DNA of 64,000 nt from Lachnospiraceae bacterium. GTDB taxonomy: Bacteria > Bacillota > Clostridia > Lachnospirales > Lachnospiraceae. Position 1 is the stretch's first letter. Each line of letters starts with the position of its first letter. Below are positions 19,661 through 59,339 of this stretch, piece after piece. The stretch covers positions 62,001-126,000 of the forward strand of contig JAFQVJ010000011.1 in assembly GCA_017408025.1 (NCBI GenBank), in the 5' to 3' direction. The notes below the pieces were generated by a model, which did no database searches, was not told the origin of the DNA, and saw only the letters and a program-made list of their open reading frames with translations. The position numbers and the translations under genes were made by a program.

Positions 19661-19918
19661 GTTCTACCTCCTACGACCAAAGGGGCAACGGGTATAAAAT
19701 CCCTGCTGCCCCTTTAGGTTTTCGCCTTACTGCATTTCCCGTAGTTAAATAGAGCATAAGTTTAACCCATGCTGCCAATATCTCCGGCTACTTTTGTGTC
19801 CGAATCGGTCTATATCCTCTTGCTTTTTTCTCTTTTTCCTGCTATGCTTTTATTGAACATAGGGGGCGGTTAGCAGGAATGTTAAGAAGTCCGCCCCTTG
19901 TGTGAATCCCTTACTTGA
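19661..19918. other. Structured leader between small gene and transposase
   Basis: 258 bp without a convincing gene. Minus-strand features are a GGGGCGG ... CCGCCCC hairpin (about 19862-19891), one copy of the 17-bp dispersed motif at 19796, and AAAGGGGCA ... TGCCCCTTT pairing near 19679-19716 just ahead of the transposase ribosome site. The last could limit transposase expression. Confidence 0.45.
19796..19812. promoter_or_regulatory. Dispersed 17-bp near-palindrome, site 1
   Basis: GTGTCCGAATCGGTCTA, noncoding, upstream of the transposase. It matches the consensus GTGTCCGAATCGGTCAC at 15 of 17 positions. Candidate binding site for ParB or a phage repressor. Confidence 0.7.
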
Positions 19919-20050
19919 TTACTTTCTTACTTCATCAAGTATCTTGTCTATATGTTCTACTGTTTTAAGTTCTCCGTTTGCTCTTGCGACCTCCCGGATT
20001 GATACCAACATTGCGATTAAATCAGCTTTGCTCATTTCTTCGTTCTCCAT
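19919..20050 (-). CDS. Small 43-residue protein ahead of the transposase
   Basis: Short gene with an excellent ribosome site (AAAGGAG, then ATG at 20050). It begins MENEEMSKADLIAM and ends LDEVRK, is helical and charged, and has no known domain. It is the first gene after the operator-containing promoter and shares its transcript with the transposase. It could be a transposition regulator; function unknown. Confidence 0.75.
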   Translation of the reverse strand: MENEEMSKADLIAMLVSIREVARANGELKTVEHIDKILDEVRK

Positions 20051-20089
20051 TTCGTAACTCCTTTCCTGCTATCTCCTTGCTACAATTAT

Positions 20090-20118
20090 ATTATATACTT
20101 GCACAAGTATATTGTCAA
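20090..20118 (-). promoter_or_regulatory. Consensus promoter with operator in the spacer
   Basis: TTGACA (20113-20118), 17 bp, TATAAT (20090-20095): both hexamers are perfect. The spacer holds the palindrome TACTTGTGCAAGTA (20096-20109), the same operator found in control regions A and B. It drives the 43-residue gene and probably the transposase; a bound repressor would block polymerase. Confidence 0.88.
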
Positions 20119-20138
20119 GGTTTTTTCCTAAATTTGTG

Positions 20139-20315
20139 CTACAAATTTTCAACTTTTTTAAAGCCTGCGTATTCCTCAACGATTCTTTGCAATTTGTCGG
20201 TAAAGTTCTTTCCCGGACTTCGTTCTATGATTTCCACAATCTCCGGCTTTAGTCTTACGGTCTTATGAATATTACAATCGTCATTCGTATATACACCGTT
20301 TTTATATGCGTACAT
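20139..20315 (-). CDS. Ribbon-helix-helix-like DNA-binding protein (58 aa)
   Basis: Starts at the ATG 20315 directly after the stop of the gene at 20316 (no gap), so it is coupled to it. The segment HKTVRLKPEIVEIIERSP followed by NFTDKLQRIVEEY fits a beta strand and two helices of Arc/MetJ type. It is a candidate operator-binding protein for the TACTTGNNCAAGTA sites. No toxin gene is adjacent. Confidence 0.75.
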   Translation of the reverse strand: MYAYKNGVYTNDDCNIHKTVRLKPEIVEIIERSPGKNFTDKLQRIVEEYAGFKKVENL

Positions 20316-20516
20316 TTACTTACCGCCCCTTTCTATCTTCTCGTTAATCGCAGCTACTACAAATTCATTTGTGCTTTTGTACCCCTGCTCTTTGGCAATC
20401 TTGGCTATTTTGTCCTTTTCTCCAATCGGCACAATAACCGGGATTCTGTCGTAGTTCTTCTCATTGTACTTATTCTTCGCCCTTGTGCTTGGCTTTCCTG
20501 CTTTTTCCTCTGCCAC
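20316..20516 (-). CDS. Ribbon-helix-helix-like DNA-binding protein (66 aa)
   Basis: GTG start behind AAAGGAG. A basic N-terminus (KPSTRAKNKYNEKN) is followed by the strand YDRIPVIVPIG and two helices (KDKIAKIAKEQG, STNEFVVAAINEKIE), as in Arc-like repressors. It is read leftward from control region A, whose operators it may bind. With the following 58-residue gene it is the only clear regulator pair near the lysogeny-type control region; no CI-like HTH repressor is seen. Confidence 0.82.
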   Translation of the reverse strand: MAEEKAGKPSTRAKNKYNEKNYDRIPVIVPIGEKDKIAKIAKEQGYKSTNEFVVAAINEKIERGGK

Positions 20517-20523
20517 GTCCGCT

Positions 20524-20561
20524 CTCCTTTCTGTGCTACAAAGTCCTGATTTTGTGGCACA
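20524..20561 (-). repeat. NQDFVAQKG leader element, copy A
   Basis: About 38 bp nearly identical to the portal leader at 46199. Both end in AGCACAGAAAGGAG (ribosome site) and can encode NQDFVAQKG. Differences between copies are partly at third codon positions. Confidence 0.7.
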
Positions 20562-20574
20562 ATTCTTTTATTTG

Positions 20575-20693
20575 ATTCTACCACACTTTTACTACTTGCA
20601 CAAGTATACAGTTTGCACAACTTTTATTTATACTTGTGCAAGTATTTTTGTGTATTATTCCGGGTTGCTTTTATACTTGTGCAAGTATATAAT
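20575..20693. promoter_or_regulatory. Control region A: three operators, divergent promoters
   Basis: Palindromes TACTTGNNCAAGTA at 20593-20606, 20631-20644 and 20674-20687. The rightward promoter is TTGCTT (20665-20670), 17 bp, TATAAT (20688-20693), with the third operator filling the spacer. The leftward promoter is TTGTGC (20598-20603), 17 bp, TAGAAT (20575-20580), overlapping the first operator. The arrangement recalls a three-site lambda-type operator. An inverted relative lies at 55483-55583. Confidence 0.85.
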
Positions 20694-20748
20694 AGAATCA
20701 TCAAGAGGAACACAACAACAAATTTTCTTATATATGGAGGTATTCACA

Positions 20749-21018
20749 ATGGAAAGAACACTTGAAACAATCGCTATCAATTCAGCTTTAACAATCGTCA
20801 GACTTAAAGGCGAAACAAAATTTAAACATCCACTCGGCTATACCGCCCCTTGGGGATACTGCTTTAAGCACCCGGAAAAAGGCTATTTTGCTTTTGAGGG
20901 CGAAACTTCCCCATATATCCCTTGCGGTGGTAGAAAGGCTCTTGTTTCTATCATGGAGCAAGGCGGATTTCTCAATTTTGATAACGTCGTTTGGCTTCAA
21001 CCACTTACCCAAGCATAA
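20749..21018 (+). CDS. Hypothetical 89-residue protein, only plus-strand phage gene seen
   Basis: ATG at 20749 behind TATGGAGG, downstream of the rightward promoter of control region A. It starts MERTLETIAINSALTIVRL, with a hydrophilic middle rich in Gly, Pro and aromatic residues, and ends in VVWLQPLTQA. No domain is recognised. Its divergent, operator-controlled position suggests a lysogeny or early-switch role (inference). Confidence 0.75.
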   Translation: MERTLETIAINSALTIVRLKGETKFKHPLGYTAPWGYCFKHPEKGYFAFEGETSPYIPCGGRKALVSIMEQGGFLNFDNVVWLQPLTQA

Positions 21019-21021
21019 GAA

Positions 21022-21060
21022 AAAACGCCCCAAGGCTTTAAATGAGCCAAGGGGCGTTTT
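21022..21060. terminator. Bidirectional terminator
   Basis: AAAACGCCCC ... GGGGCGTTTT stem with an inner GGCT/AGCC pairing, between the convergent plus-strand 89-residue gene and the minus-strand lysis operon. A and T runs on both sides allow termination in both directions. Confidence 0.9.
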
Positions 21061-21079
21061 GAGTTGTTCATATTCTCTT

Positions 21080-21484
21080 TTATTCTGCTTCTTTAAGTTC
21101 CGGCAATTCCGCCACGTCAAGCAAAGGAAAAACCTGTACGCCCTGCTGCTTATTCTCAATATAGGTCGTAAGGTTGCCGTTTGTTTCCCATTTCTTTTTA
21201 GCTTCCGCTAATACCGCTTCCGCAATATCTACCAACTGCTTTTCTGTAAACAGGATTCTAATAACACTCGGTAGGTGCGTGTATAATTTCGCCACTACGT
21301 CCGACAACTTAATAATGCCTGTGCCGGCCCCGCACTCGCCCTCTGCGTCTGTTACCAATTTTACCGCAATTCTCTTTAAAATTTTGGTCTGTCCTGTCTT
21401 GATTAAGTAAATAATCAATGCTACCACAATGGCAACCAATAACACGGAATCCCAATTAACAAGTAACCATTTTAAAATCTGCAT
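21080..21484 (-). CDS. Phage holin, LLH-like
   Basis: 134 residues. One N-terminal membrane segment (VLLVAIVVALIIYLI) is followed by a helical cytoplasmic part containing DAEGECGAGTGIIKLSDVVAKLY and LFTEKQL, the pattern of LLH-family holins. It would form membrane lesions that release the adjacent endolysins. It is the last gene of the late operon before the terminator. Confidence 0.75.
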   Translation of the reverse strand: MQILKWLLVNWDSVLLVAIVVALIIYLIKTGQTKILKRIAVKLVTDAEGECGAGTGIIKLSDVVAKLYTHLPSVIRILFTEKQLVDIAEAVLAEAKKKWETNGNLTTYIENKQQGVQVFPLLDVAELPELKEAE

Positions 21485-21503
21485 AATTCTTTACCTCCGT
21501 TAT

Positions 21504-21520
21504 GTGTCCGAATCGGTCTA
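21504..21520. promoter_or_regulatory. Dispersed 17-bp near-palindrome, site 2
   Basis: GTGTCCGAATCGGTCTA in the 33-bp gap between holin and endolysin genes. Same sequence as site 1, noncoding. Confidence 0.7.
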
Positions 21521-22648
21521 TTTTACATCTGCTTTATCCACCCAACCGTAAACGCCTTTGCCGTCCTGTGAGATTAAGTGGTAAGGGTGCGTACCCTTGG
21601 TATTAAGTGCCGTAACCTTGCAGGCACTTACTACGTCCTTGCGTACTGCTGCCTGCTTCGCCGTAGAGGACTTATAAACCGGTCCGCCTGTAAATGTTAC
21701 GGTGTCGCCCTTTTCAACGGTTGTAGGGTCATTCTGTGCGGTTGTGGATACCTCTTTTACGGAATCCGCATTAACCCAACCATAAACGCCCTTGCCGTCC
21801 TGTGAGATTAAGTGGTAAGGGTGCGGACTTCCGGGATTGATTGCCGTTACCCTGCACTTACTTGTTACGCCCTTTGTATAGGTCGCATTTTTCGCCATAG
21901 AGGACTTATAAACCCCTCCGCCTGTAAATGTTACGGTGTCGCCCTTTTCGACCGAATTTGAGCCGTCCTGTGGCTTTGTGGGCGGTGTCTGTGGGGTTGG
22001 CTCGTCCTTTCTCTCAATGTCCGCTAAATCACTTGCCTTTACGGCTTCGTATACGCTATTTCTGCGGTTTGCGTATTTGCCTAACTTGGAATCATCTTTT
22101 AAGGCGTATTCGTGGATTTCTTCAAGTCCTACCTTTTCAATTCCTCCAAGTGCTTCCGCTGCCGTTTCTGCAATCTTCTTACTGCCACCGCTTCCGCCTT
22201 GGTTTTCAAGGTCTGCATAGTACGCAAGTGCCTTTAAGGAAACAATGCCGACCTTTACGCCGTTTTTGACATAGCGTGTTATATCTTCGTCCGCTAAATC
22301 GTCCTGTGCTTCCTTGCCCTGCGGTGTGGAAAGTAATTTAGAAATTGCCTTTGCTTCCTCTTCGGTTGCTGCTCTTACCTGTTTATCCCATGCTTTCGGA
22401 CTACTTCCGGCAATCTCGGTATAGAGTGCTTCCCCTAAAATCTCCTTTGCCTGCTCCTGGTCCTTATTTACAATGGTCTGCAAGAGGGGCAACGCACGGC
22501 CCCAATAGGCGTTCCATTGGCATTTACCTACGCTCATACCGTGGTCGTTGTCGTTTCTGTTTACGCTCCCATAGTTGCCCTCCTGCGAATAGATAATACC
22601 GCTTGCAACCTTAACAACCTTTTTAATCTGTGCTGCCGTTACTGCCAT
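21518..22648 (-). CDS. Endolysin with lysozyme-like domain and two SH3-like repeats
   Basis: 376 residues. The N-terminal domain (about 1-200) has YSQEGNYGSVNRNDNDHG and MSVGKCQWN, typical of a lysozyme-like glycosidase with a catalytic Glu; exact bond specificity is unknown. After a Pro-rich linker, two copies of a domain of about 65 residues follow (VEKGDTVTFTGG ... HPYHLISQDGKGVYGWV), likely for wall binding. A third copy of this domain sits inside the tail hub protein at 32167. No signal peptide, so it needs the holin. Confidence 0.82.
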   Translation of the reverse strand: MAVTAAQIKKVVKVASGIIYSQEGNYGSVNRNDNDHGMSVGKCQWNAYWGRALPLLQTIVNKDQEQAKEILGEALYTEIAGSSPKAWDKQVRAATEEEAKAISKLLSTPQGKEAQDDLADEDITRYVKNGVKVGIVSLKALAYYADLENQGGSGGSKKIAETAAEALGGIEKVGLEEIHEYALKDDSKLGKYANRRNSVYEAVKASDLADIERKDEPTPQTPPTKPQDGSNSVEKGDTVTFTGGGVYKSSMAKNATYTKGVTSKCRVTAINPGSPHPYHLISQDGKGVYGWVNADSVKEVSTTAQNDPTTVEKGDTVTFTGGPVYKSSTAKQAAVRKDVVSACKVTALNTKGTHPYHLISQDGKGVYGWVDKADVK

Positions 22649-22658
22649 AGTCTACCTC

Positions 22659-23711: not shown

Positions 23712-23723
23712 TGTCGTAACCTC

Positions 23724-24104: not shown

Positions 24105-24119
24105 ATTCTCTTTTTCCTC

Positions 24120-24431: not shown

Positions 24432-24435
24432 GGCG

Positions 24436-25744: not shown

Positions 25745-25857
25745 AGCGGAGCGGAAACCAATGTTGTCGTTGGAGTTGGAACGGACGTTATTCAAGTTGA
25801 GAGCGGACGGACCCGAATTGGAAGTATTGTTGAACGCCGACCCACGGATAGGCAACC
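25745..25857 (-). repeat. DGR template repeat (TR)
   Basis: 113 bp matching VR1 (26408-26520) and, over 110 bp, VR2 (63795-63904). On the coding strand it would read ...RGSAFNN...SALNLNNVRSNSNDN..., with ten AAC/AAT codons. It has 22 adenines; 12 are changed in VR1 and 11 in VR2. It lies 35 bp after avd and 220 bp before the RT start, with no hairpin after its 3' end. The gap 25525-25744 holds no gene and probably forms the structured part of the template RNA. Confidence 0.96.
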
Positions 25858-25891
25858 ACCGTAACTTTGTGATTATTTCCCAATGTATTTT

Positions 25892-26392: not shown

Positions 26393-27439
26393 TTACAGTT
26401 CACAAAAAGCGGAGCGGAAACCAATGTGGCCGTCGGAGCCGGAACGGACGTCATCCAAGGCGAGAGCGGACGGACCCGAATCGGAAGAATTGCTGAACGC
26501 CGACCCACGGATAGGCAACCTTTCGCCGTTGTTTCTCGCCCAAAAATAATCCCCGCCGTATGTTGCGGATTCTTCCGGGAATAATCCTAAAGCAATCAGC
26601 AACTTAGGAATACTTACGCCACTTGCTGCAACAAGGCTCTTAAACTGATTTCCGATATTGTTACTATCGGTTGTCTGCACCGTTACACTTGTGTTAATTC
26701 TGCCTGCTAAATTGCTTGCGGTTGTGCCGTCAATTTTCAGAGTTCCGGCAGTTCCCGGCTCTACTAATGTGCCGTCCGGCATAATAGCTTTCCAAAGGGT
26801 GCTGCCTGCGGTCATATCGCAATCAAGTTTCATACAGTTACCGTAAGGGATAATCTGAATTTCTCCGTCCATAAGACGTAATCCGCCGGTCCATTCCCAA
26901 ACATTTCCGCAAAGGTCAGCAATGCCGGAGGTATCGTGGTTGTGATACCATGTAGGCTCTCCCGTGCCTGTTAATGTTCTGCTTGTTTCTCCCTGTGGCT
27001 GAATACCCTTTTCGTAAGGGTGGTAATAATCCTTGCCGTAGTTGGTATTGCCGTGCGGTACTGTACCCATTTTCTGCGATAACAGGTTAAGGCAGGCAAA
27101 TACGCCCGTCTGATTCAAGTGCCAACCGTTGCCTTTCTTACGGCAGGCTGCTAATGCCTGGTCGAAAGTGATGTAATTCTTAGGCAGTTTCATACCAAGG
27201 GAATAAGCACGGTCGTTTTCCACGATATTAGCGAATTTAGAAACCCAAATAGTGTTTTTCTCTTCGCCGTCCACAATCCAAAACGGCAATACTTCATCTG
27301 TACCGCCTGTGATAATGTCGGAATACTTCATTTTAGGCACACCGACCATAATAGACGGCATACCCGTATCATCATAAATAACCTTGTTTCCTGCACCAAA
27401 CTGTGCTACTGCACCCTGTAAATCGTCAAAATTTGCCAT
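26393..27439 (-). CDS. DGR target 1: C-type-lectin/FGE-like variable receptor protein
   Basis: 348 residues. Its middle resembles the formylglycine-generating-enzyme (SUMF1-like) lectin fold (GIADLCGNVWEWTGG, YFWARNNGE), used by many DGR targets as a ligand-binding scaffold. The variable region is residues 307-344. Compared with TR, ten codons differ (residues 316, 318, 320, 327, 329, 330, 334 and 336-338). The C-terminus is GFRSAFCEL. Its place after the tail genes suggests a receptor-binding tip protein. Confidence 0.92.
   Translation of the reverse strand: MANFDDLQGAVAQFGAGNKVIYDDTGMPSIMVGVPKMKYSDIITGGTDEVLPFWIVDGEEKNTIWVSKFANIVENDRAYSLGMKLPKNYITFDQALAACRKKGNGWHLNQTGVFACLNLLSQKMGTVPHGNTNYGKDYYHPYEKGIQPQGETSRTLTGTGEPTWYHNHDTSGIADLCGNVWEWTGGLRLMDGEIQIIPYGNCMKLDCDMTAGSTLWKAIMPDGTLVEPGTAGTLKIDGTTASNLAGRINTSVTVQTTDSNNIGNQFKSLVAASGVSIPKLLIALGLFPEESATYGGDYFWARNNGERLPIRGSAFSNSSDSGPSALALDDVRSGSDGHIGFRSAFCEL
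26408..26520 (-). repeat. DGR variable repeat 1 (VR1)
   Basis: Aligns with TR without gaps over 113 bp. It has 12 differences, all at template adenines (coding strand): TR positions 25765, 25767, 25771, 25776, 25777, 25789, 25792, 25797, 25798, 25819, 25825 and 25830. The changes include A to G, C and T. Confidence 0.96.
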
Positions 27440-28479: not shown

Positions 28480-28484
28480 TTCTG

Positions 28485-28811: not shown

Positions 28812-29912
28812 TTATTTGCTTAATCCGGAAGCACCGCAATACTTAACCGTATATTGGTAACTCTCGGCTTCTGCCGTTGTTGTCATGCCCTTATCAGACG
28901 TTTCTACCTCCGTGCTTCTGTCGGGGTCTGTGCCTGTCAAGGTGCTTTCAAATACATAGGCGGTTACTTCCGTTTCCCCTACTGCTGCCACTTCCTCGGA
29001 TTCAAATAAAATATTTCTGTCCGGGTTAGTTCCTGCAAGGTCGGAAAGGAATTTGTACCCCTGCCCTGCTGCCGTTGCCGTCACGTCCTCACTCTCTACC
29101 GCTCCCACGGTGCTAATGTAAGGCGTTGTGCCTGTGGTGGCTTCTCCCGTCTGATTGCTCGTAAATTTGTAACCTTTCGTGTCCGAATCGGTCACAACCT
29201 CGCTATCATGCGTGGAAAATACTATATTTCTGTCCGGCTTTGTACCGGTCCTTACGGCTTCGGCAAGGTATCCCGCTGCCTTTGCGTTTATGCTGATAAC
29301 GGTATTTTCTACCGCTCCAACCGTATTTCTGTAAGGCTCTGTGCCTGCCTTAATCTGCCCTGTCATAGGCACGGAAAATAAAAAATACTCCGTGCGTGGC
29401 ATGATAACCACACACATAGAGCATTGATAATATAAGCCGTCCAAATGAGCCGTAAGACGCTTGTATATGTCTACGGTCTTAACGATTTCCTCGTAATCCG
29501 CTTCTACCCTTGAATGGGTCGTATCAAGCACTATACGGAATCGGTACGGCTTACCGCCGTAGGTAAACCATTCCTCAATTTCGCTTTGCGGGTGGATACC
29601 TCCTAAAGCCATTTCAACGGCTGCCTTTGTGCCTAATTTCTGATGTACTCTTACGCTATCCTTGATAATTGCCTTTTTGGCTTCTATCGGGTAATCGTAG
29701 TTGTACCAATCAACGTGTAAATCGTAGGCTAAAATATCTAGCCAAGTTTCCGATAGCGTGTCTATGTTGGCGTATATGATGTTTTTTTCTGTTTCTACGG
29801 CGGTTATATGCAGTTCCTCCGCAATCAACCGCCCTAATACTAACATAGATTCATCTTGCCTTAGTGCAGGCGGAAACGTGGTTAAAAAATCCGCATTTTT
29901 AATATTATTCAT
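28812..29912 (-). CDS. Phage tail protein I (baseplate) with C-terminal repeats
   Basis: About 366 residues from the ATG at 29912 (GGAGGTG ahead). The N-terminal 180 residues match P2 gpI-like proteins: LLPPAL-type start (TTFPPALRQD), LDILAYDLHVDWY, KKAIIKDSVRVHQKLGTKAAVE. The rest is about five imperfect repeats of the type YxFxSxxTGxxxGTxPxRN, probably a beta-structured stalk. It contains dispersed site 3, read as VTDSDT. Confidence 0.85.
   Translation of the reverse strand: MNNIKNADFLTTFPPALRQDESMLVLGRLIAEELHITAVETEKNIIYANIDTLSETWLDILAYDLHVDWYNYDYPIEAKKAIIKDSVRVHQKLGTKAAVEMALGGIHPQSEIEEWFTYGGKPYRFRIVLDTTHSRVEADYEEIVKTVDIYKRLTAHLDGLYYQCSMCVVIMPRTEYFLFSVPMTGQIKAGTEPYRNTVGAVENTVISINAKAAGYLAEAVRTGTKPDRNIVFSTHDSEVVTDSDTKGYKFTSNQTGEATTGTTPYISTVGAVESEDVTATAAGQGYKFLSDLAGTNPDRNILFESEEVAAVGETEVTAYVFESTLTGTDPDRSTEVETSDKGMTTTAEAESYQYTVKYCGASGLSK
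29179..29195. promoter_or_regulatory. Dispersed 17-bp near-palindrome, site 3
   Basis: GTGTCCGAATCGGTCAC inside the gpI gene; the coding strand reads VTDSDT. Confidence 0.75.
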
Positions 29913-31050
29913 CTTCCACACCTCCAAAGGTTACGGTACAGTTCTTAATAACCGCTACGCTTCCCTTTGGAATCTGTGTAAATGCAGGCTTTGTTATCTC
30001 CGCCCTTTTTATGCCGGATTCCATGAGCATAGCATTAAAATAGGACGGGTTAATATCCCGCCCCATTTTGGAGGTCTGCCATAATATGTAATTCTCGGTC
30101 GCCAACTCTACCGCCTGCTTGATTTCCTTTGTGCTTGCTGCCTTGTCGGTCGGTATGTAATAAGTGGCTTCTATGTCAAATTCAACCGTTGTAGGTGCTG
30201 CAACAACGACCTTATCCGTCATAGGTCTTATATCATCTGCACTTAAATACTCCTGCACTTTCTGTATGAGTTCCTCGCTCGGCAGTTCTCCGCCGTAAAG
30301 CATAATCCTAACGTCCGCTACGCCCTCCTGCGGACTTTCTGCGGATACGTCACTAATCAATGATGAAACGCTTTTAGCGTGATACGCATAGCTTCCACGG
30401 GGTCCGGCGGTTGTATAGGATTCTTCGCTTTCCCTCATGCGGTTATAAAATGCCGTGTCGGTTTCCTCTTCGCTACCGCCTGCGGTTTCCGTGGTGTTGG
30501 ATACCTCTTTAAAGTATAAAAATTCGTCCGACACTAATTTATTTACCTGTCCGGGCGTAAAGCCGTTTCCGACCGTTCCCACGCTCTGACAGACGGCCCC
30601 GACCTCTGCGTAATCTTCCCCGGCTTTGAATACCAAATACCCGGTTGTCGCAAAGTTTATAACGCCGTCTACGGTTACTTCCAAGGTATCCGTTATAACG
30701 TAATCCTCGTTTAGTGTCGTTGTAAGGTAAAAGCCAAGGGTTGTTTTTGCTGCCGTTGGCTCTAGCCTGTATGTGTTGTGGAAAATCTCGCTAAGAGAAT
30801 CCAAATTCTCTCCTACGGCGTAGCGTGGTAAGTTCTGCTTTGCGGATTCGTTGATTAACGCCCTTTCCTGCACTATAACGCTTGCAAGCCATAGGATAAA
30901 CGCCCTTACAGGGTCGGCAGGGTAAAGCGTCCTGCCTGTGATTGTTTCGTACCCTGCTATAAGTTTATTTACCAACGCTTCCGTATTGGTATCTACAAAC
31001 TCAACCTCGGGCAGATTAGCCGGAATATTCCTCGTTTTCGTATTCTCCAT
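29905..31050 (-). CDS. Baseplate assembly protein J
   Basis: 381 residues, Mu gp47/P2 gpJ family. Seen: LPEVEFVDTNTEALVNKLIAGYE, LPRYAVGENLDSLSEIF, GAVCQSVGTVGNGFTPGQVNKL, and SYTTAGPRGSYAYHAKSVSSLISDV. These wedge proteins connect the hub to the fibres in contractile tails. It overlaps both neighbours. Confidence 0.93.
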   Translation of the reverse strand: MENTKTRNIPANLPEVEFVDTNTEALVNKLIAGYETITGRTLYPADPVRAFILWLASVIVQERALINESAKQNLPRYAVGENLDSLSEIFHNTYRLEPTAAKTTLGFYLTTTLNEDYVITDTLEVTVDGVINFATTGYLVFKAGEDYAEVGAVCQSVGTVGNGFTPGQVNKLVSDEFLYFKEVSNTTETAGGSEEETDTAFYNRMRESEESYTTAGPRGSYAYHAKSVSSLISDVSAESPQEGVADVRIMLYGGELPSEELIQKVQEYLSADDIRPMTDKVVVAAPTTVEFDIEATYYIPTDKAASTKEIKQAVELATENYILWQTSKMGRDINPSYFNAMLMESGIKRAEITKPAFTQIPKGSVAVIKNCTVTFGGVEDE

Positions 31051-37590: not shown

Positions 37591-38135
37591 TTAGGCTTGT
37601 TTGTCCTGTTGCTCTTTTGTAAGTTCGTTATACTCTCCAATCCAAGAGTTAAACTCTCTTAGTGTCCGGCTCAACCAAAACTCTAAGCCTGTGTGTGTTT
37701 CCTTTGCCAAAAGCAGGCTATTTCTTTTAACCCATTTTGTGGGATTCTGCTTTACAATCCCAAACTTACTAAAAAATCTCTTGCCACATTTTTGATTTTT
37801 CCAAAATCTCTAATAGGCAAGTTTGCGATAACGTCACTTCCTACGCCTGCTGCCTTGGCTGCCAAGCGGTACAGGTATGCGGTTGAGATTTCCGGGGTTA
37901 ATGCAAATTCGCCTACCGCCGTCATTTCGTTTTCAATGGCTACAAGGTCGTCGCCTATCAGCTTTTCAAAGTCAAATACTAATTCTGTATAGGTCTTGTC
38001 CTCGTAGGTGTAAGGCTTCTGAAACTTATGCGTATACGCTCCCTGTGGTGTGTCCGAATCGGTCACATTTGCCTTGTTTTCTGCCTTTCCCTCTGCTGCT
38101 TCCTGTGTTGCATTAGCTTTCTTAATATCTTCCAT
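37591..38135 (-). CDS. Tail assembly chaperone, -1 frameshift product
   Basis: Near its end the chaperone gene has the slippery heptamer T-TTT-TTA (37770-37776). A -1 shift there avoids the stop and continues as SKFGIVKQNPTKW ... EFWLSRTLREFNSW, ending at the TAA 37591-37593. About 60 residues are added. Such overlapping chaperone pairs (lambda G/GT, P2 E/E') are conserved in tailed phages and help fold the tape measure protein. Confidence 0.82.
37752..38135 (-). CDS. Tail assembly chaperone (gpE-like)
   Basis: 127 residues. N-terminal acidic region with dispersed site 4 (VTDSDT), then YTELVFDFEKLIGDDLVAIENEM, matching small tail chaperones. It lies upstream of the tape measure gene and downstream of the tube, as expected. 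Most ribosomes should make this short form; a minority shift to the extended form. Confidence 0.85.
   Translation of the reverse strand: MEDIKKANATQEAAEGKAENKANVTDSDTPQGAYTHKFQKPYTYEDKTYTELVFDFEKLIGDDLVAIENEMTAVGEFALTPEISTAYLYRLAAKAAGVGSDVIANLPIRDFGKIKNVARDFLVSLGL
38050..38066. promoter_or_regulatory. Dispersed 17-bp near-palindrome, site 4
   Basis: GTGTCCGAATCGGTCAC inside the tail chaperone gene; read as VTDSDT. Confidence 0.75.
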
Positions 38136-43050: not shown

Positions 43051-43419
43051 TTATTCTGTTGCTTCCGCTACGGCATTATCGGTATCAACCAAGAAAATAC
43101 CCAACTTGCGGAAAGGTGCTTTAAAATCTGCTGCGGTAGTTCCTGCGGGTACTTCGATAGCTTCCCCGAAAAACTGTCCTGTAAGGTAAATTACTACCTC
43201 TTCGCCTGCTTCGGCGTTCTCTGCTGCCAAACCGTAAACGTCTGCCACGTTATCCGCCGTAACGGCTTTTAATGTGCCGTCTGCGTTAAGCACTACGGGC
43301 ATAAGTTCTACGATAGTTTCGCCCTCTGCTACTGTGCCCGAATCGGTCACTACGGGATAATCCCCGGCGTGTACCATTTTAGGGGTGTAAGTTCCTAAAT
43401 TCTCTTTGCCTGCTGCCAT
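43051..43419 (-). CDS. Head decoration protein (lambda gpD-like)
   Basis: 122 residues, compact beta-rich protein typical of HDPD decoration proteins; AGDYPVVTDSGTVAEGETI holds dispersed site 5, followed by VVLNADGTLKAV and VVIYLTGQF. It stabilises the expanded capsid. Located between protease/scaffold and capsid genes, the lambda order. Confidence 0.85.
   Translation of the reverse strand: MAAGKENLGTYTPKMVHAGDYPVVTDSGTVAEGETIVELMPVVLNADGTLKAVTADNVADVYGLAAENAEAGEEVVIYLTGQFFGEAIEVPAGTTAADFKAPFRKLGIFLVDTDNAVAEATE
43334..43350. promoter_or_regulatory. Dispersed 17-bp near-palindrome, site 5
   Basis: GTGCCCGAATCGGTCAC (one change) inside the decoration protein gene; read as VTDSGT. Confidence 0.65.
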
Positions 43420-50607: not shown

Positions 50608-50946
50608 TTATGGCGGTCTGTATTTTTCCTGCCATTTGATATTTGCTTTTGCCTGTCTTGGCTTTCCTGCCTTAATACTGCTGCCGTGCCGTGTCCTCCT
50701 GCCTATGCAGGATTCGCAAATATCCTCTTTCTCTACCGCCAATACCTCCAAAATCCTTTCTGAAAGGTCTTTTAAGGTTTCCCATGCGTCCGAAAGGGTT
50801 TGCAATAATACGCTTAGTCTATCGCACGTTGTTACTATATCTTCCCCCATGCAGAGGGATAGCGTTTTAATGTTTTCTGTGTCCGAATCGGACAACGCCA
50901 CCCCTCCAAGGGTTATTTTATCCTCCCATACTATCAGTTTATCCAT
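50608..50946 (-). CDS. Hypothetical protein with dispersed site 6
   Basis: 112 residues starting MDKLIVWEDKITLGG; the 17-bp site is read as LSDSDTE. The middle is helical (TTCDRLSVLLQTLSDAWETLKDL), and the C-terminus has CESCIGRRTRHGSSIKAGKPRQ. No known family. Between ParB and the late regulator. Confidence 0.6.
   Translation of the reverse strand: MDKLIVWEDKITLGGVALSDSDTENIKTLSLCMGEDIVTTCDRLSVLLQTLSDAWETLKDLSERILEVLAVEKEDICESCIGRRTRHGSSIKAGKPRQAKANIKWQEKYRPP
50879..50895. promoter_or_regulatory. Dispersed 17-bp near-palindrome, site 6
   Basis: GTGTCCGAATCGGACAA; here the inner TCCGA-A-TCGGA is fully symmetric. Read as LSDSDT on the coding strand. Confidence 0.68.
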
Positions 50947-50956: not shown

Positions 50957-52552
50957 CTAACCCTGTAAATAGGCTTGGTATTCTTTGGTTTTCTCCATTA
51001 CCCATACAGAAACGGCGTTTGTAATCCTGCTTTCCCATTCTTTCGGGCAGATATTGTTATTTTCTTCCGCCTGTAAAAGAATAGTATCCCTTACAACCTT
51101 TTGTATCATGTTGTACTGTGCTACTCCGTACTTGGCTTGCAAATACTTTGTAAAATCTAATCCTTTTTCGGCAGGCTCGGGTACATATTCCGGGTAATCA
51201 CTCATATCCTGCTGCCCCGGCAGTTCCTCGTTATCCTCTTCCTCGGTGTCTACTGCTGCCATAGGTGCATTTACAGGCTCATTCATAAAACCGCTTTCCT
51301 GTGTGGCTTCTCCTGTTTCCGTGTCGGTATTTTCTACCCCTTCCGGCGTATCATCATAAGCCAACATATCATTTTCAATCATTAACGCCACGATTTCCGC
51401 AAGGTCTGTATAGGCAATCAAGTAATTTTTCCAATTTTCGTCTATCAAGGTCATTCCCTCGGTGGAAAATCTGTAAATAAAGTGCTTTCCGCCCTCTAAC
51501 TCTACCTTTGAGCCGTTAAATGATTTCTCAAAATGCTTTCTCAATGCCTTTTCAATGCCTGCGGTATCCTTTGCTTTAAATACTGCCCTGTTTGCTTCGC
51601 CCTTTAAAGCGTGTGTGATTGCTAATTGTGCCTGCTCTGCCTGTTCGTCCGTGATTTCCTCTTTTTGTTCCTGCTTCACGTCCTTAATGTGCAATTCTCC
51701 CTTATCCTCGTACTGCTTATAGGCGTTTGCCTGGTCCTCTTCGCTCAATCGGCTTAATTCGTGGGCGGTAGAAATACCGATATTGCCCTTTTCTAACTCC
51801 TGCTTAAATTCCGGGGATAAATTATTGTCTATTGCTTCCATTCTGCCAATCTGTGTAGTGGACGTATTGAGGTATTCCGCCACAATTTCACGAATACGGC
51901 CCATTTTCTCCCTTTCGTAGCAAGGGCAATTAACGCCTTTTGCTTCCAAGTATGTAGCCTTGTCCTCTTCACTCATTCCCTCGCACTCGCAACCGTCTAC
52001 GCAACGGAATTTACAACCTCGGCAGTAATCCCCGGCTTTGATTGCTTCTTTAATCTCGGTATCAAGTGCTTTCTTATACTCGGTAAGGATTTCTTTTAAT
52101 TCCTTTGCCTGCTGCACCTTTTCCCAATCGCTTAACTGTCTTGCGGTGGCATTTGTGAGAATAAGGCTTAACTTATCCCTTATAGCGTCTGATTCCGTTT
52201 CAATGCGACAAGGTACATATCTGTACTCTTCCTTACCCTCTGCTATCAGCTTCAAACTTGCCAATCTACGGCGGTGTCCTGCGATAACCTCATACTTGCC
52301 GTGTGCTTCCGGCTTAACTACCAAATTCTGCTTGATACCGCCTAATAATTCGATAGCGTCCGCCAAATCGTTAATATCTTCGGTTGTATAGAAATTGTCT
52401 TTGCTCGGCATTAAATCCTCTGCGTCAATCATCACAATATCAAAGGTGCTTTCCTGTTTCTCTGCCGGTCCCTCTGCCTGTGTATTCTTTTCGGGTACTG
52501 CTGCCCCTTTGCTCTTTCCGTTCAATAAGTCATTAAGGTTAAATCCTGCCAT
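50957..52552 (-). CDS. parB: ParB/Spo0J-like partition protein
   Basis: 531 residues, longer than usual. The ParB N-domain has DAEDLMPSKDNFY, then LGGIKQNLVVKP and YEVIAGHRRRLASLKL (the GxRRxxA CTP-binding motif). A Cys cluster follows (CRGCKFRCVDGCECEG ... CPCYERE) and a KorB-like HTH region (TSTTQIGRMEAIDNNL, GISTAHELSRLSEEDQ). With ParA at 53633 it forms a partition pair in a prophage. Possible ligand: the eight dispersed 17-bp sites. Confidence 0.88.
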   Translation of the reverse strand: MAGFNLNDLLNGKSKGAAVPEKNTQAEGPAEKQESTFDIVMIDAEDLMPSKDNFYTTEDINDLADAIELLGGIKQNLVVKPEAHGKYEVIAGHRRRLASLKLIAEGKEEYRYVPCRIETESDAIRDKLSLILTNATARQLSDWEKVQQAKELKEILTEYKKALDTEIKEAIKAGDYCRGCKFRCVDGCECEGMSEEDKATYLEAKGVNCPCYEREKMGRIREIVAEYLNTSTTQIGRMEAIDNNLSPEFKQELEKGNIGISTAHELSRLSEEDQANAYKQYEDKGELHIKDVKQEQKEEITDEQAEQAQLAITHALKGEANRAVFKAKDTAGIEKALRKHFEKSFNGSKVELEGGKHFIYRFSTEGMTLIDENWKNYLIAYTDLAEIVALMIENDMLAYDDTPEGVENTDTETGEATQESGFMNEPVNAPMAAVDTEEEDNEELPGQQDMSDYPEYVPEPAEKGLDFTKYLQAKYGVAQYNMIQKVVRDTILLQAEENNNICPKEWESRITNAVSVWVMEKTKEYQAYLQG

Positions 52553-52916
52553 TTCCTTTTACCTCTCTTTCCGCTCTGTGTGGTATTGCTACCTGTGATT
52601 CGTCCGCTCTGCTTACTTTCTCGCCTGCGATTCTCTTAATTATCTTTTCCGCCATTTCGTCCGCTACCATTCGTGCTACTACGTCCGTCTGCTCGTCAAG
52701 GCTTTTTCTACTTTCTATCTCATGCCGTAACTCTTCTATGTAACGGTCTGCTTCCATCAACCTATCCTCTAAGGCTCTGCGTTCCTCTCTAAGGCGGTTA
52801 TATTCTTCTAAAGGGATTTCCACGGTCGGACCCTTAAACTGCCATTCAAGAAACGCCTTGTATTCGTCTAACGGCACTTCCACGGTTGGCATTGCTACTA
52901 CTTGTGCTTCGCTCAC
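52539..52916 (-). CDS. Hypothetical coiled-coil protein between ParA and ParB
   Basis: 125 residues. Two similar N-terminal segments (TVEVPLDEYKAFLEW and TVEIPLEEYNRLREE), then a long coiled coil (ALEDRLMEADRYIEELRHEIESR) and a basic tail. It overlaps the parB start by 14 bp. It may bridge or tune the partition proteins (context only). Confidence 0.65.
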   Translation of the reverse strand: MSEAQVVAMPTVEVPLDEYKAFLEWQFKGPTVEIPLEEYNRLREERRALEDRLMEADRYIEELRHEIESRKSLDEQTDVVARMVADEMAEKIIKRIAGEKVSRADESQVAIPHRAEREVKGNGRI

Positions 52917-53101
52917 TTTCTTTTACCTCTCTTTCTCGGTATGCAACCCTCGCAATCCTCGGTATCCCTTAATTTGCTGATTTTGCAACCGCCTGTATGC
53001 TGATACGCCTTTGTAATGTGCTTACTGCAATTTGTATTATCACATCTGCTATCGCAAAACATAGGGTAATTGTCTGTATTGATAAAAATGATTCCTCCCA
53101 T
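52913..53101 (-). CDS. Small Cys-rich protein
   Basis: 62 residues with seven Cys (CDSRCDNTNC, then GGCKISKLRDTEDCEGC), likely zinc-binding, and a basic end (IPRKRGKRK). Overlaps its neighbours by 1-4 bp. Unknown function. Confidence 0.65.
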   Translation of the reverse strand: MGGIIFINTDNYPMFCDSRCDNTNCSKHITKAYQHTGGCKISKLRDTEDCEGCIPRKRGKRK

Positions 53102-53379
53102 TATCTCCTACCTCCTGCTACCCTGCGATTTACAAAGGCGGGTATCTGTATTTCTCTTTGCGGTTTAGTGTCCGAATCGGTCACAATGCCTTTAATCTGC
53201 TGCATTAACACGCCTGCTACTTCCTCTACCGCCTTGCGTCTGCTTAACTCTTCCGCTGCCTGCTTTAATTCTGTTTGCAATCTGAAATTTTCCGCTATGA
53301 TTGCGTTGTATTTCTCCACGGATATATTGATATAGTTACTTCCCTGTGTTCCAAACTCCTTTACTGCTAAATTTGACAT
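53101..53379 (-). CDS. Hypothetical protein with dispersed site 7
   Basis: 92 residues. Starts MSNLAVKEFGTQGSNYINISVEKY; helical middle (IIAENFRLQTELKQAAEELSRRKAVEEV); dispersed site read as VTDSDTK near residue 69; end PAFVNRRVAGGRR. No known domain. Confidence 0.6.
   Translation of the reverse strand: MSNLAVKEFGTQGSNYINISVEKYNAIIAENFRLQTELKQAAEELSRRKAVEEVAGVLMQQIKGIVTDSDTKPQREIQIPAFVNRRVAGGRR
53168..53184. promoter_or_regulatory. Dispersed 17-bp near-palindrome, site 7
   Basis: GTGTCCGAATCGGTCAC inside the 92-residue gene; read as VTDSDT. Only 0.4 kb from parA. Confidence 0.75.
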
Positions 53380-53415
53380 ACTCGCTACCTCCTGCTTATG
53401 ATATTTTACTTTGCA

Positions 53416-53631: not shown

Positions 53632-53632
53632 G

Positions 53633-54385
53633 CTATACCTCCAAATACTCTTTTACAAACGCCTTATAATCTCTAGCGGCCCCGGAACGTGGGGAATACT
53701 CCATAAGGCTTTCATTGGTAAATGTTACTTCGTCCGCTTTCTCTGTTCTGCGGATATGTGTTTTAAATACCGGGTAACGCTGATTCTGTAACCACTCTTC
53801 GCCCTGTCTGCATACATCACGGTTATAGAACATAGTCACAAGGCAACCCCTAAATTTTAATTTCGGGTTAAGCTGCTTTGCATTGTTTATCTGCTCTTCC
53901 AATTCGTCCATACCGTCAAAGGCGTATCCGTCAATCTTAATCGGTATAATAACTTCGTCTGCTGCCACAAGTGCATTGATAACCGATATATTTATATCCG
54001 GCGGACAATCAATAATACAGTAATCGTAATTATCCTTTACCCTCTCCAATTCCTTAGAAAGTATTGTTGCCTGGTCCCTCTCTTCGTCCTTGATAACCAT
54101 TAAATTAGCGGTCAAAAGGTGCATATTGGCAGGAATCGCATATAATCTCTCGGTCGCCGTTTCCTGCGTTACCTCTTCTATTGCCTGCTGCCCTGTCAGA
54201 ATATCCGCAAGGCTCGGATTGTCGTAACTCCATACACCGCAAGCCTTGGATAAATTACCCTGCTTGTCGTTATCAATCACTAAAACCCTTTTGCCGTAAT
54301 CTGTGGCTAAGATATGAGCCATATTGACCGTTGTTGTTGTTTTGGCACAACCGCCTTTCATGTTGATAATTGCTATTGTTTTCAT
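53633..54385 (-). CDS. parA: ParA partition ATPase
   Basis: 250 residues. Deviant Walker A INMKGGCAKTTTTVN at the N-terminus, ALVIDND-type A' motif (VLVIDNDKQGN), Walker B (YCIIDCPPDINISVINAL), and the DEVIIPIKIDGYAF segment. Drives movement of ParB-parS complexes, usually of plasmids. In a prophage it points to an extrachromosomal phase or to another use of the system. Confidence 0.93.
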   Translation of the reverse strand: MKTIAIINMKGGCAKTTTTVNMAHILATDYGKRVLVIDNDKQGNLSKACGVWSYDNPSLADILTGQQAIEEVTQETATERLYAIPANMHLLTANLMVIKDEERDQATILSKELERVKDNYDYCIIDCPPDINISVINALVAADEVIIPIKIDGYAFDGMDELEEQINNAKQLNPKLKFRGCLVTMFYNRDVCRQGEEWLQNQRYPVFKTHIRRTEKADEVTFTNESLMEYSPRSGAARDYKAFVKEYLEV

Positions 54386-54872: not shown

Positions 54873-54917
54873 GGCTCTTTCCTCCTTTGGTGTGCGTCTG
54901 CACACTTTATACAATCT

Positions 54918-55445: not shown

Positions 55446-55482
55446 AACCGATTACCTCCGTTTGCTTTCCTTTGATGATTCT

Positions 55483-55583
55483 ATTATATACTTGTGCAAG
55501 TATAAAAGCAACCCGGGATAATTAACAAATATACTTGCATAAGTATATAATTTCTTTGTGCATTTTGTATACTTGCACAAGTA
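55483..55583. promoter_or_regulatory. Control region B: three operators, inverted relative of region A
   Basis: Palindromes at 55489-55502, 55532-55545 (TACTTGCATAAGTA) and 55570-55583. Minus-strand promoter TTGCTT (55506-55511), 17 bp, TATAAT (55483-55488). Operator spacings 43 and 38 bp mirror region A (38 and 43), and the sequence between is similar in inverted orientation over about 115 bp. Confidence 0.85.
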
Positions 55584-55584
55584 T

Positions 55585-55890
55585 TTAATCCTGATTATGT
55601 GCTACAATCTTCTTTGCTTCCAATTCCTGCCGTTTTTCTTTCAAATACTGCATATATTCGCCGTAGGTCATGCCCGGCGGTACTATCTTCTGTTGTATCT
55701 GCCTTGCCTGCTGCACCTTACGGCTTAATACTGCTGCCTTGGTTTCCCTCTTGGGCGTTTCCTGCTTCGGTGGCTCTACCGCCACTATCCCTAACCGCCT
55801 TGCCTGTCTGTTCGGCTTTGTGGTATTGTATGTAATCCTGTTATCCTGCTTAAATGGTATTACCTTGCGTTTGCTTTTCTTCTTTCCCAT
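55585..55890 (-). CDS. Hypothetical basic protein
   Basis: About 101 residues from the ATG at 55890 (AAAGGGGCGG ahead). Very basic start (MGKKKSKRKVIPFKQ), helical end (GMTYGEYMQYLKEKRQELEAKKIVAHNQD). The last codons belong to the NQD element found in two leaders. Unknown function. Confidence 0.65.
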   Translation of the reverse strand: MGKKKSKRKVIPFKQDNRITYNTTKPNRQARRLGIVAVEPPKQETPKRETKAAVLSRKVQQARQIQQKIVPPGMTYGEYMQYLKEKRQELEAKKIVAHNQD

Positions 55891-56104
55891 GCTTACCGCC
55901 CCTTTCCAATTCGTCCGCAATCTCTATAAGGCTTTCCATGCACTCCCTTATATTGCCGTCCGTTCCTGCCGTAATGCTTAAAATACTACTTATCTGCTTT
56001 AATCTCTTGATATGTTCGGGGGTAACTGCTGCCCGTTGTAAGCACTCCGGGCAGATTTCTACAACCTCCAAGGCTTTTTTACCGCATACATGGCATTTAC
56101 TCAT
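55850..56104 (-). CDS. Small zinc-ribbon protein
   Basis: 84 residues: MSKCHVCGKKALEVVEICPECLQR at the N-terminus has two CxxC pairs; the rest is helical (EHIKRLKQISSILS, NIRECMESLIEIADELE). It overlaps the genes on both sides. Unknown role. Confidence 0.65.
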   Translation of the reverse strand: MSKCHVCGKKALEVVEICPECLQRAAVTPEHIKRLKQISSILSITAGTDGNIRECMESLIEIADELERGGKHGKEEKQTQGNTI

Positions 56105-56303
56105 TTTTTCTATCACTCCAAATTCTTTTTACTTCCTGCCACGTCAAAATAAATAACGCCGTGTATCCTATATTCGCATTTAAAACATAATGCACAAAAC
56201 CGATAATAAGCATAAGCACAACGGCAATTACAAACGGTGTCAGCTTTTCTTTTACCCAAAACTTAAATACCGCCTTATAAAAGGCTTTCGTTTTCTCTTT
56301 CAC
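56097..56303 (-). CDS. Small membrane protein
   Basis: 68 residues with a GTG start behind GGAGG. One or two membrane segments (PFVIAVVLMLIIGFVHYVL, then IGYTALFILTW) and charged ends. Unknown; might act at the membrane in lysogeny or exclusion, without direct evidence. Confidence 0.6.
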   Translation of the reverse strand: MKEKTKAFYKAVFKFWVKEKLTPFVIAVVLMLIIGFVHYVLNANIGYTALFILTWQEVKRIWSDRKNE

Positions 56304-57885: not shown

Positions 57886-57886
57886 G

Positions 57887-58096
57887 TTACCGCTCCTTTC
57901 TTCGTTTTCGTTGCTTCTTTTCTTCCTGCTCTTTCCTGTATCTTTCCAAATACTCTAACTGCTCTTTGTCCTCTTCCTCTTTGTAGTATTTCCACGCTTC
58001 GGATTGTGTAGCTTTGTCTATTGCCCGGACATACAGGACGGATACAGGCACAACGCAAATTATTATGATTAAGATAATTGCTATTGTATTTGTCAT
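57887..58096 (-). CDS. Small membrane-anchored coiled-coil protein
   Basis: About 69 residues from the ATG at 58096: one membrane helix (TIAIILIIIICVVPVSVLYV) and a highly charged coiled coil (EEDKEQLEYLERYRKEQEEKKQRKRRKE). Start overlaps the upstream gene's end. Unknown. Confidence 0.6.
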   Translation of the reverse strand: MTNTIAIILIIIICVVPVSVLYVRAIDKATQSEAWKYYKEEEDKEQLEYLERYRKEQEEKKQRKRRKER

Positions 58097-58386
58097 TCCT
58101 GCCAATCCTCCATTTTTAAAATCCTCTGCCTTTGGTTTTCTATGGTCTGCTTCATTTCCTCAATCTGATAAGGCAATACGTCCGCATTTTCAAACATATA
58201 AAGGACTTCGACCGCCCGGGCAACCTCTACGCCTGCTTTAAGCCTTGGCTTTTTCGTTTTCGGGTCAATCTCTGTAAGCCTGCGGTTTTTAGGTTTCTTT
58301 TTTTTCTTTGACGGTCCAGGCATTGCCTTTTTCATCATGCCGTAATACGGTATCTCTGCCCCTAAGATTCTGCCGATTCCTGCCAT
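58093..58386 (-). CDS. Hypothetical basic protein
   Basis: 97 residues. Basic segment PGPSKKKKKPKNRRLTEIDPKTKKP, then helical VARAVEVLYMFENADVLPYQIEEMKQTI. Might bind nucleic acid by charge; no domain recognised. Confidence 0.6.
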   Translation of the reverse strand: MAGIGRILGAEIPYYGMMKKAMPGPSKKKKKPKNRRLTEIDPKTKKPRLKAGVEVARAVEVLYMFENADVLPYQIEEMKQTIENQRQRILKMEDWQE

Positions 58387-58718
58387 TGTGTGTTATCCTC
58401 CGCCTGCTGCCCTGCCGTATCCTCTGCCTGTAACTTCTCCCAAAGAATCGGCAATAAAATTTTAGGTGCTGACATCATGTGTGCTATGGTCGGTGCTTCT
58501 ACGATACGGTCGCACATTTGTATATATACCTCTGCTGCCGTGGCGGTTTTAATCCAATCCGGCGTTTTGCTTATGGATTGCTTGTATATATGCGATTCCT
58601 TGTATTTCTCCGCCAATTCCTTAATGATTTCTTTTGCACGGTCTGAAAAATCGACCTTTCCGCCCTCTTCAATTTCCGCAATCTCTAGCAACTCTATAAC
58701 TAAGTCCTTTTCGCTCAT
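58362..58718 (-). CDS. Hypothetical helical protein
   Basis: 118 residues, acidic and helical (DLVIELLEIAEIEEGGKVDFSDRAKEIIKELAEKYKE in short blocks). C-terminus Gln/Glu-rich. Overlaps neighbours. Unknown. Confidence 0.6.
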   Translation of the reverse strand: MSEKDLVIELLEIAEIEEGGKVDFSDRAKEIIKELAEKYKESHIYKQSISKTPDWIKTATAAEVYIQMCDRIVEAPTIAHMMSAPKILLPILWEKLQAEDTAGQQAEDNTQWQESAES

Positions 58719-58721
58719 TTT

Positions 58722-59339
58722 CTACCTCCATACCCATACTTCTTTAATGTTTTGTAAAAAGTGTACCGCTCCGTCAAACTTTACCTTGTATTCCTCTATG
58801 TCCTCCGGCTTTAAATACTGCCTGCCGTACATTTCTTTCATATCACGCCACACATTCCACGGAATAAAGAAAAAATCGTCCTGTATGCAGATACAAACGC
58901 CACACAACGCCCCGAATCTGTTATGTGCTTCCAATACGTCCATTTGCGTATCCGTCAATACATTTCTTTGTATTCTGTCTTGGGTTGTCCTCTTGGCTTC
59001 AAATACAATCGACCGACCGCCGTATAAGGTCCCTTGAAAGTCGGGTTGTGCGTGTTTGCTGAAACGGCCCGTAAATTCTCCTGTTTTATGATTTTTCTTT
59101 GTTACACGGAACGGCTCGGGTGTTTTATCTATCACGGCTATATTGTGTTGCTCGTACATTTTGCACCCGGCTAATATCTCATTTTCAAAATGTTGTCCTT
59201 GGGCGTTATTCATGCGGTTTTTGTACTGCCGTTTTAACTGTTCTTCGTCTATCGGGTTATTTCTCGCCTGCTGCCACGCCTGCAACTCTCTATCCGTGTC
59301 CGAATCGGTCACAAACCCTTGATTTATCGCACTTCGCAT
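58722..59339 (-). CDS. RecU-like Holliday junction resolvase
   Basis: About 205 residues from the ATG at 59339 (AAAGGAGCGG ahead, TAATG overlap). Nuclease core: NAQGQHFENEILAG, EPFRVTKKN, GRFSKHAQPDFQGTLYGGRSIVFEAKRTT (Asp and Glu-x-Lys metal residues), and Q..VLEAHNRFGALCGVCI. Resolves recombination or replication branches. Dispersed site 8 is near the N-terminus (VTDSDTD). Confidence 0.88.
   Translation of the reverse strand: MRSAINQGFVTDSDTDRELQAWQQARNNPIDEEQLKRQYKNRMNNAQGQHFENEILAGCKMYEQHNIAVIDKTPEPFRVTKKNHKTGEFTGRFSKHAQPDFQGTLYGGRSIVFEAKRTTQDRIQRNVLTDTQMDVLEAHNRFGALCGVCICIQDDFFFIPWNVWRDMKEMYGRQYLKPEDIEEYKVKFDGAVHFLQNIKEVWVWR
59296..59312. promoter_or_regulatory. Dispersed 17-bp near-palindrome, site 8
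   Basis: GTGTCCGAATCGGTCAC inside the recU-like gene, at codons 10-15; read as VTDSDT. Confidence 0.75.

Follow-up and report, generated by a model that had tools for sequence, protein, structure and literature searches.

What is the purpose of a 17-bp near-palindrome that recurs eight times along a single prophage? The question is raised by a 64,000-nucleotide stretch of a Lachnospiraceae bacterium genome (assembly GCA_017408025.1, contig JAFQVJ010000011.1, positions 62,001 to 126,000), referred to below as the window, which carries nearly all of a contractile-tailed prophage. The eight palindromes are very probably the parS sites of a ParABS partition system encoded by the phage itself, spread over its genome as a dispersed centromere. 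This was the first choice of an earlier, sequence-only reading of the same DNA, and it is supported by the linkage of the site to parB across phages and by its absence from relatives without ParB.

The eight copies (table 1) stand where the sequence-only reading had placed them, all in one orientation (8/8 on the plus strand), and its description of 8-nt arms that flank a central A and differ by one mismatch is accurate (the unpaired positions being 4/14), as is the statement that six copies lie within open reading frames (ORFs) of unrelated function. Four copies are exact, one has one mismatch and three have two, where shuffled sequences are expected to give 0.01. Six further matches on the minus strand are the same palindromes in reverse reading.

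The absence of the motif from host DNA, claimed from an 18.5-kb sample, extends to the genome. In the host assembly of 2.35 Mb (91% complete, 71 contigs) no match with up to three mismatches was found beyond the eight prophage sites, and a host origin of the sites was rejected on this ground. Among 299 sampled genomes of the host family, the exact 17-mer is present in two, one of which is the present genome.

The linkage to parB was followed through the protein. A profile was made from 12 ParBs, that of the window and eleven others, ten of which came from loci first reached via the motif, and its search of viral contigs gave 84 loci with a relative, of which the best 80 were kept (most with 31-46% identity). 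With up to two mismatches allowed over its 14 fixed positions, GTGnCCGAnTCGGnCAC is located within 600 bp upstream of parB in 63 of these best 80 loci and within 100 bp in 52, typically 30-65 bp before the start. Markov-shuffled upstream stretches yielded 0.0 matches, and the remainder of the same loci three matches in 616 kb. Loci found by exact match are biased toward presence of the site, and thus the counts that matter are those of the protein-found loci; without the 17 loci on contigs also found by the exact motif, the site is present in 48 of 63.

When a looser pattern is applied (again up to two mismatches), the site accompanies 67 of 72 distinct ParBs, six of the 80 loci having been left out for short or partial ParBs and two for identity to others; the five without are L175, L267, L277, L295 and L303. 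A search with the window's ParB alone found the motif, anywhere in the available DNA, in 10 of 11 loci.

The G+C content of the loci spans 0.25-0.60, yet the site varies little. Several of its changes are mirrored in both arms, as expected of a site bound by a dimer. On the ParB tree the outer base pair switches type three times, compared with 17.8 times with shuffled labels; this is a pattern of co-inheritance and does not show which residue reads the pair. A palindrome in cis, near parAB and conserved with ParB, is thus present as in ParABS systems, and single putative ParB sites are scattered outside the par locus as in dispersed centromeres.

No site with up to two mismatches is present in Lily, FP_Epona, KLER1-1 and MT835543, four phages (chosen from the 20 sheath matches listed of 137) that have a homologous sheath (39-45% identity) and, by the profile, lack ParB. 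ParB matches in phage records were five, with 25-30% identity, and at least five sites are present in two of the three records examined. In MT835558 there are five at one mismatch in 33 kb. Cormatin (ON453905.1, L319), a Flavonifractor phage that carries ParA and a ParB relative, has sites at 15083, 15329, 21480, 23600 and 28505, that is, one perfect site beside parB, three GTGTCCAACTTGGACAC (two mismatches) and one other at one mismatch. The third record, MT838970 (4.2 kb covered), has only a site with three mismatches, 42 bp before the ParB match. The annotation of Cormatin names no sheath, and its virion genes therefore differ from those of the window; as an induced Flavonifractor prophage it is a possible experimental model for the system. 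Searches of phage records with the decoration protein and with 24 kb of prophage DNA gave no match.

The exact 17-mer was found in 52 stretches of viral contigs and 109 stretches of bacterial or archaeal genomes. Two or more homologous genes of this phage group accompany it in 47 of the viral stretches and in 50 of the genome stretches. The other 59 genome stretches (median G+C 0.63) look like chance matches. Through 22 motif loci, 17 distinct genomes of relatives were reached, which show the position of the sites and not their frequency. Four to seven distinct sites (up to two mismatches) lie on one contig in 11 of the 17, and the other six have three at most. The 14 virus records reached by the motif comprise four with 4-7 sites, three with 3 and seven with 1-2. 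A search of 34 more distant virus records (23-55 kb) for KTGNCCRANTYGGNCAM with up to one mismatch gave one site in 17 of them, two in 14, three in two and none in one.

The places of the sites are conserved as well. In 14 phages in which they were mapped, sites recur in the resolvase gene, between parA and parB, in the decoration and tail assembly chaperone genes, in the baseplate or tape measure gene, and beside the lysis genes. The only site of the single-site phage G319 is between parA and parB, and copy 7 of the window probably corresponds to the site that relatives have next to parB. Copy 2 is conserved in relatives, and a copy like copy 1 near the transposase end is also present in G299, G300, G308 and G312. 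Of the homologues found by protein, 12 of 13 for the resolvase (the miss is 40% identical) and 4 of 4 for the decoration protein have the site.

The genes that bear the six genic copies are all on the minus strand, and all six copies share codon frame 0. On this strand four of them read GTG ACC GAT TCG GAC AC (V T D S D T), with the variant peptides V T D S G T at 43334 and L S D S D T at 50879; peptides of this type are found in the window at the sites only. In the loci of the phage group, all 75 of the exact copies within an aligned gene (related sequences) share orientation and frame; another 24 exact copies lie outside any aligned gene.

Such uniformity could mean that a conserved peptide, VTDSDT, common to several phage proteins, is what is kept rather than a DNA site. 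However, one copy of the window is outside the listed ORFs and another overlaps a stop codon, and the codon-usage product for five of the site codons is 0.0012. In the chaperone gene, G311 has GTG TCC GAA TCG GAC AC, in which two amino acids are changed (TD to SE) and the palindrome is kept. In the distant relatives G310 (C31:14648) and G327 (C1:12710) a variant of the site is in frame 2 of the tail sheath gene, which suggests an independent gain. The peptide, whose probability is close to negligible, was rejected on the amino acid change under a kept palindrome and on the other frame in G310 and G327.

Since G311 changes amino acids yet keeps the palindrome, the DNA itself is constrained, and selection at the sites appears to act on the DNA and not on the protein alone. 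In the decoration gene, 12 aligned site-bearing phages hardly differ in the codons within the motif but do differ in the last wobble base, which lies immediately beyond it, and the two aligned siteless phages use other codons. At the scale of whole genes the signal is less clear: the mean identity of 17-nt segments did not rank the site first in alignments that include siteless relatives (decoration 10/350, chaperone 81/365, baseplate 383/1097; the resolvase was unusable because of gaps), and the codon patterns were relied on in its place.

Regarding orientation, reversed copies exist in G311, G303 and G304, and parB-adjacent sites occur with either central base; the single orientation of the window is a habit of its lineage and not a rule. 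The frame yielding an acidic, loop-friendly peptide may be the best tolerated, which would also favor one orientation; one of the other two frames of the site contains a stop codon.

Two further explanations have the single orientation in their favor. Stoperators, the second choice of the sequence-only reading, are sites of the type known from Cluster A mycobacteriophages, where an immunity repressor bound to dispersed sites blocks elongation through lytic genes. As in Cluster A, where stoperators are scattered and for the most part share an orientation (PMC6550527), the sites of the window are dispersed, have one orientation relative to transcription and lie within and between lytic genes. 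Across phages with different virion genes, however, they track and adjoin parB, even where G319 has only one, and outside this lineage their orientation varies. A second palindrome family of the prophage, clustered in two places, would suit a regulator better. Stoperators are thus very unlikely and were rejected for the parB linkage and the variable orientation.

The other explanation, an oriented DNA-processing signal (chi-like, KOPS-like, or associated with packaging or methylation), would account for the shared direction of the sites in the window and in most near relatives, and the phage encodes a DNA methyltransferase. Yet the sites are near-palindromic, their orientation is not conserved in the wider family, and they are tied to parB and absent from the four ParB-less phages. 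Signals of this kind are extremely improbable and were likewise rejected.

The proteins that a ParABS system needs are encoded by the phage. The claim that it has a ParA and a long ParB is confirmed by PHROG matches (ParA-like, 8.7e-62; ParB-like, 4.9e-93). The two genes are close to each other on the same strand, with two small ORFs in between. ParA matches AAA_31 (4.6e-51), and as the profile match starts at the first residue, it has no N-terminal helix-turn-helix (HTH). ParB falls just below the cut-off of ParB_N (8.1e-06; 26.2 bits, cut-off 26.3) and far below that of NCBIfam parB_part (25.1, cut-off 58.45). In profile similarity to solved structures Noc is best, followed by Spo0J/ParB, and an HTH and a GHRRRLA CTPase box were identified by eye. 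With these elements of its own, ParB would make a ribbon-helix-helix (RHH) protein unnecessary for recognition of the site; two small plus-strand ORFs tested as RHH candidates matched no family.

Between the CTPase fold and the HTH, ParB has a Cys-rich insert (CRGCKFRC...CECEG...CPCYE), a possible zinc site, which is found in some relatives and not in others. Distant ParB relatives with 27-34% identity are located on Paraclostridium and Clostridioides plasmids (matches H6-H10).

The chromosomal parS of the host differs from the phage site. It is present exactly, as TGTTTCACGTGAAACA, at two places outside the prophage, and no chromosomal parS (TGTTNCACGTGAAACA, up to two mismatches) was found inside it. 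Cross-talk is therefore unlikely.

In the mechanism proposed for the ParABS reading, a ParB dimer would read the near-symmetric 17-mer, load as a clamp dependent on cytidine triphosphate, and slide onto the flanking DNA. With a spacing of 1.7-8.9 kb between the sites of the window, such clamps could coat most of the 47-kb phage genome. ParA, whose gene lies just upstream, would keep the phage DNA in place on the nucleoid or spread it there as long as this DNA is outside the chromosome (after infection, after excision or during replication); partition or positioning would be the purpose. The sites are spaced somewhat more evenly than at random in the window (P of 0.02 and 0.04) and in some of nine phages that are not independent (P of 0.001-0.2 over the nine), phage ends being placed by eye and one weak site of G305 being included.

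KorB of RK2 silences distant genes and acts as a global repressor. By analogy, the sites could serve ParB-dependent regulation only, as operators of its own operon and for the silencing of distant genes, with partition secondary or absent. In many relatives the parB-adjacent site is just before the parB start, and other sites lie in structural genes, as this explanation would have it. Most sites, however, are mid-gene and not at gene starts, and near many of the parB-adjacent ones there is a ParA homologue, which pure regulation would not need. Regulation alone is hence an unlikely explanation, and regulation as a role added to partition may exist.

A genome-wide extension of the dispersed centromere is offered tentatively and is itself rather unlikely. 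According to it, the sites would be kept in-frame within virion genes to let ParB clamps cover and condense the phage genome as a whole, to the benefit of replication, the choice of excision or packaging rather than, or besides, plasmid-style partition; starting from the one to three of most relatives, their number would have risen to eight.

Several observations weigh against the interpretation of the palindromes as parS. The 80 loci found by ParB are not fully independent of the motif, the profile being derived mostly from motif-bearing phages, and 17 of them lack the site at the threshold. Three of these (L277, L309, L311) have less than 100 bp of upstream sequence, two (L175, L182) are near-copies of the window, where the site lies further off, four (L290, L306, L308, L310) have TTGACCAATTCGGTCAA and one (L248) has TGTGTTCAATTTGAACACA. 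The remaining seven (L265, L267, L269, L278, L295, L303, L304) have no simple excuse, and L267, L295 and L303 are siteless even with the looser pattern. L184 (ParB 55% identical, on a 4.3-kb contig) is the one siteless locus of the 11 reached by the window's ParB, and the phage record L313 (ParB 30% identity) has only a site with three mismatches. In 9 of the 17 genomes of relatives at least one match is on another contig, which may reflect chance, a second element or a split phage. As for covariation, ParB R219 accompanies an outer G..C in 33 of 37 distinct cases against 1 of 17, a result that comes from two to three changes on the tree and does not count as independent evidence, other columns associating more strongly.

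To these is added that the ParA-binding consensus (L/F/I)G(K/R)G(L/F/I) is, by eye, not matched in ParB, whose N-terminus is MAGFNLNDLLNGKSKGA. This consensus is common in chromosomal ParBs and not strictly defining; according to a survey of the ParB fold, it is almost always missing from divergent ParBs of mobile elements, and divergent ParBs occur on prophages and plasmids (PMC12704722). Moreover, the prophage is integrated, where partition is without obvious use. Among the 3D signatures listed in a Hi-C study, none covers the region given for the Cormatin prophage in F. plautii (PMC10197239), which speaks against a ParB structure that persists on the prophage while it is integrated. For an integrated prophage that employs a partition-like system once it is induced, AlpAC of CGP3 is a precedent (PMC4446434).

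The element extends from about 18.56 to 65.77 kb (about 47 kb), its right end being just beyond the window. A 15-bp direct repeat is found at both ends (18560-18574 and 65758-65772, the second in L185), and the genes outside are of host type, with purine and tryptophan enzymes on the left and NadA and an ABC transporter on the right. For these reasons it looks integrated between host metabolic genes. In G299 and G300, which have the same transposase, the end repeats are different ones of 16 and 17 bp, as if insertion occurred at varied sites.

By PHROG and Pfam the prophage encodes a sheath, tape measure, baseplate, major capsid, decoration protein, protease, portal and terminase, and further a Holliday junction resolvase, a replication initiator, the ParA-like ATPase, the long ParB and the methyltransferase (table 1). 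It also has a reverse transcriptase, whose assignment to the diversity-generating retroelement (DGR) type was judged by neighboring genes. A 113-nt repeat in three places (25745-25857, 26408-26520 and 63795-63907) fits DGR template and variable regions, and a likely second DGR target gene (63759-64760 in window numbering, minus strand) is 37 kb off. The second palindrome family, approximately ATACTTGTGCAAGTAT, has seven copies in clusters 35 kb apart (20085-20111, 20588-20704 and 55472-55588), possibly the operators of a phage regulator.

Table 1. Putative parS copies and selected genes of the prophage (window coordinates).
Feature	Position	Strand	Remarks
IS30-family transposase	18620..19660	-	left prophage end
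putative parS copy 1	19796..19812	+	GTGTCCGAATCGGTCTA; outside listed ORFs
putative parS copy 2	21504..21520	+	GTGTCCGAATCGGTCTA; overlaps TAG stop codon of endolysin-like ORF
endolysin-like gene	21518..22648	-	stop codon part of copy 2
baseplate gene	28812..29927	-	holds copy 3
putative parS copy 3	29179..29195	+	exact; in baseplate gene, codon frame 0
tail assembly chaperone gene	37752..38135	-	holds copy 4
putative parS copy 4	38050..38066	+	exact; in tail assembly chaperone gene, frame 0
head decoration gene	43051..43419	-	holds copy 5
putative parS copy 5	43334..43350	+	GTGCCCGAATCGGTCAC; in head decoration gene, frame 0
ORF downstream of parB	50608..50946	-	holds copy 6; no family matched
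putative parS copy 6	50879..50895	+	GTGTCCGAATCGGACAA; in small ORF just downstream of parB, frame 0
parB	50957..52552	-	ParB_N/CTPase fold, AGHRRRLA box, central HTH, Cys-rich insert, long C-terminal part
small ORF directly upstream of parB	52539..52916	-	in many relatives (g125)
small ORF between parA and parB	53101..53379	-	holds copy 7
putative parS copy 7	53168..53184	+	exact; in small ORF between parA and parB
parA	53633..54385	-	Walker-type ATPase, 250 aa
Holliday junction resolvase gene	58722..59345	-	holds copy 8
putative parS copy 8	59296..59312	+	exact; in Holliday junction resolvase gene, frame 0

The dispersed parS reading is well supported by the sequence comparisons. What appears to be new is a phage ParB family with its own putative parS, together with a lineage in which numerous sites lie in-frame inside virion genes. 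In the literature searched, largely outside the subscription journals, neither this site family nor a parS within virion genes was found described, which is weak evidence of novelty, and the sole match of a text search for six core variants of the site concerned the detection of an unrelated bacterium by polymerase chain reaction.

The system would define a ParB-parS specificity family across phages of 25-60% G+C, and the consensus of its site would let ParABS phages be recognized from sequence. The natural series of one to eight putative centromere sites per genome would make testable why some replicons disperse their centromeres. The system would also present DNA sites in virion genes that are held by selection on the DNA and not on the protein alone, and it raises the question of the role of a partition system for an integrated prophage.

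Dispersed centromeres as such are already known, centromere-like sites of this kind having been described for N15, RK2, pSM19035 and pMF1 (PMC3235114, PMC5016525). Cluster A stoperators are similar in the dispersal and predominant orientation mentioned above, but they are 13-bp sites of an immunity repressor (PMC6550527), whereas the present sites go with parB. Chromosomal Spo0J/ParB-parS and Noc share the HTH ParB, the CTPase fold and the palindromic sites and differ in the sequence of the site, as seen in the host's own parS.

The parABS of RedRock-type mycobacteriophages is a ParABS of temperate phages that stabilizes plasmids and serves an extrachromosomal prophage; on the contrary, its parS-L and parS-R each consist of eight clustered direct 8-bp repeats and not of single dispersed palindromes (PMC7157519). 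The KorB operators of RK2 and the iterons of pMF1 resemble the present case in that one ParB-type protein has dispersed sites, some of those of pMF1 being in ORFs (PMC3235114), but both replicons are plasmids with other site sequences.

In N15 Sop, similarly to the phage studied here, a ParA and a ParB encoded by a phage are combined with a few scattered palindromic centromere sites, IR1-4 (PMC5016525, PMC3235114), and the N15 IR oligonucleotides are of similar length with GTG...CAC ends (PMC7205306), a likeness for which no homology is claimed. N15 is, however, a linear plasmid that is not integrated and has four sites with another core, whereas the present prophage has eight, six of which are in-frame in genes.

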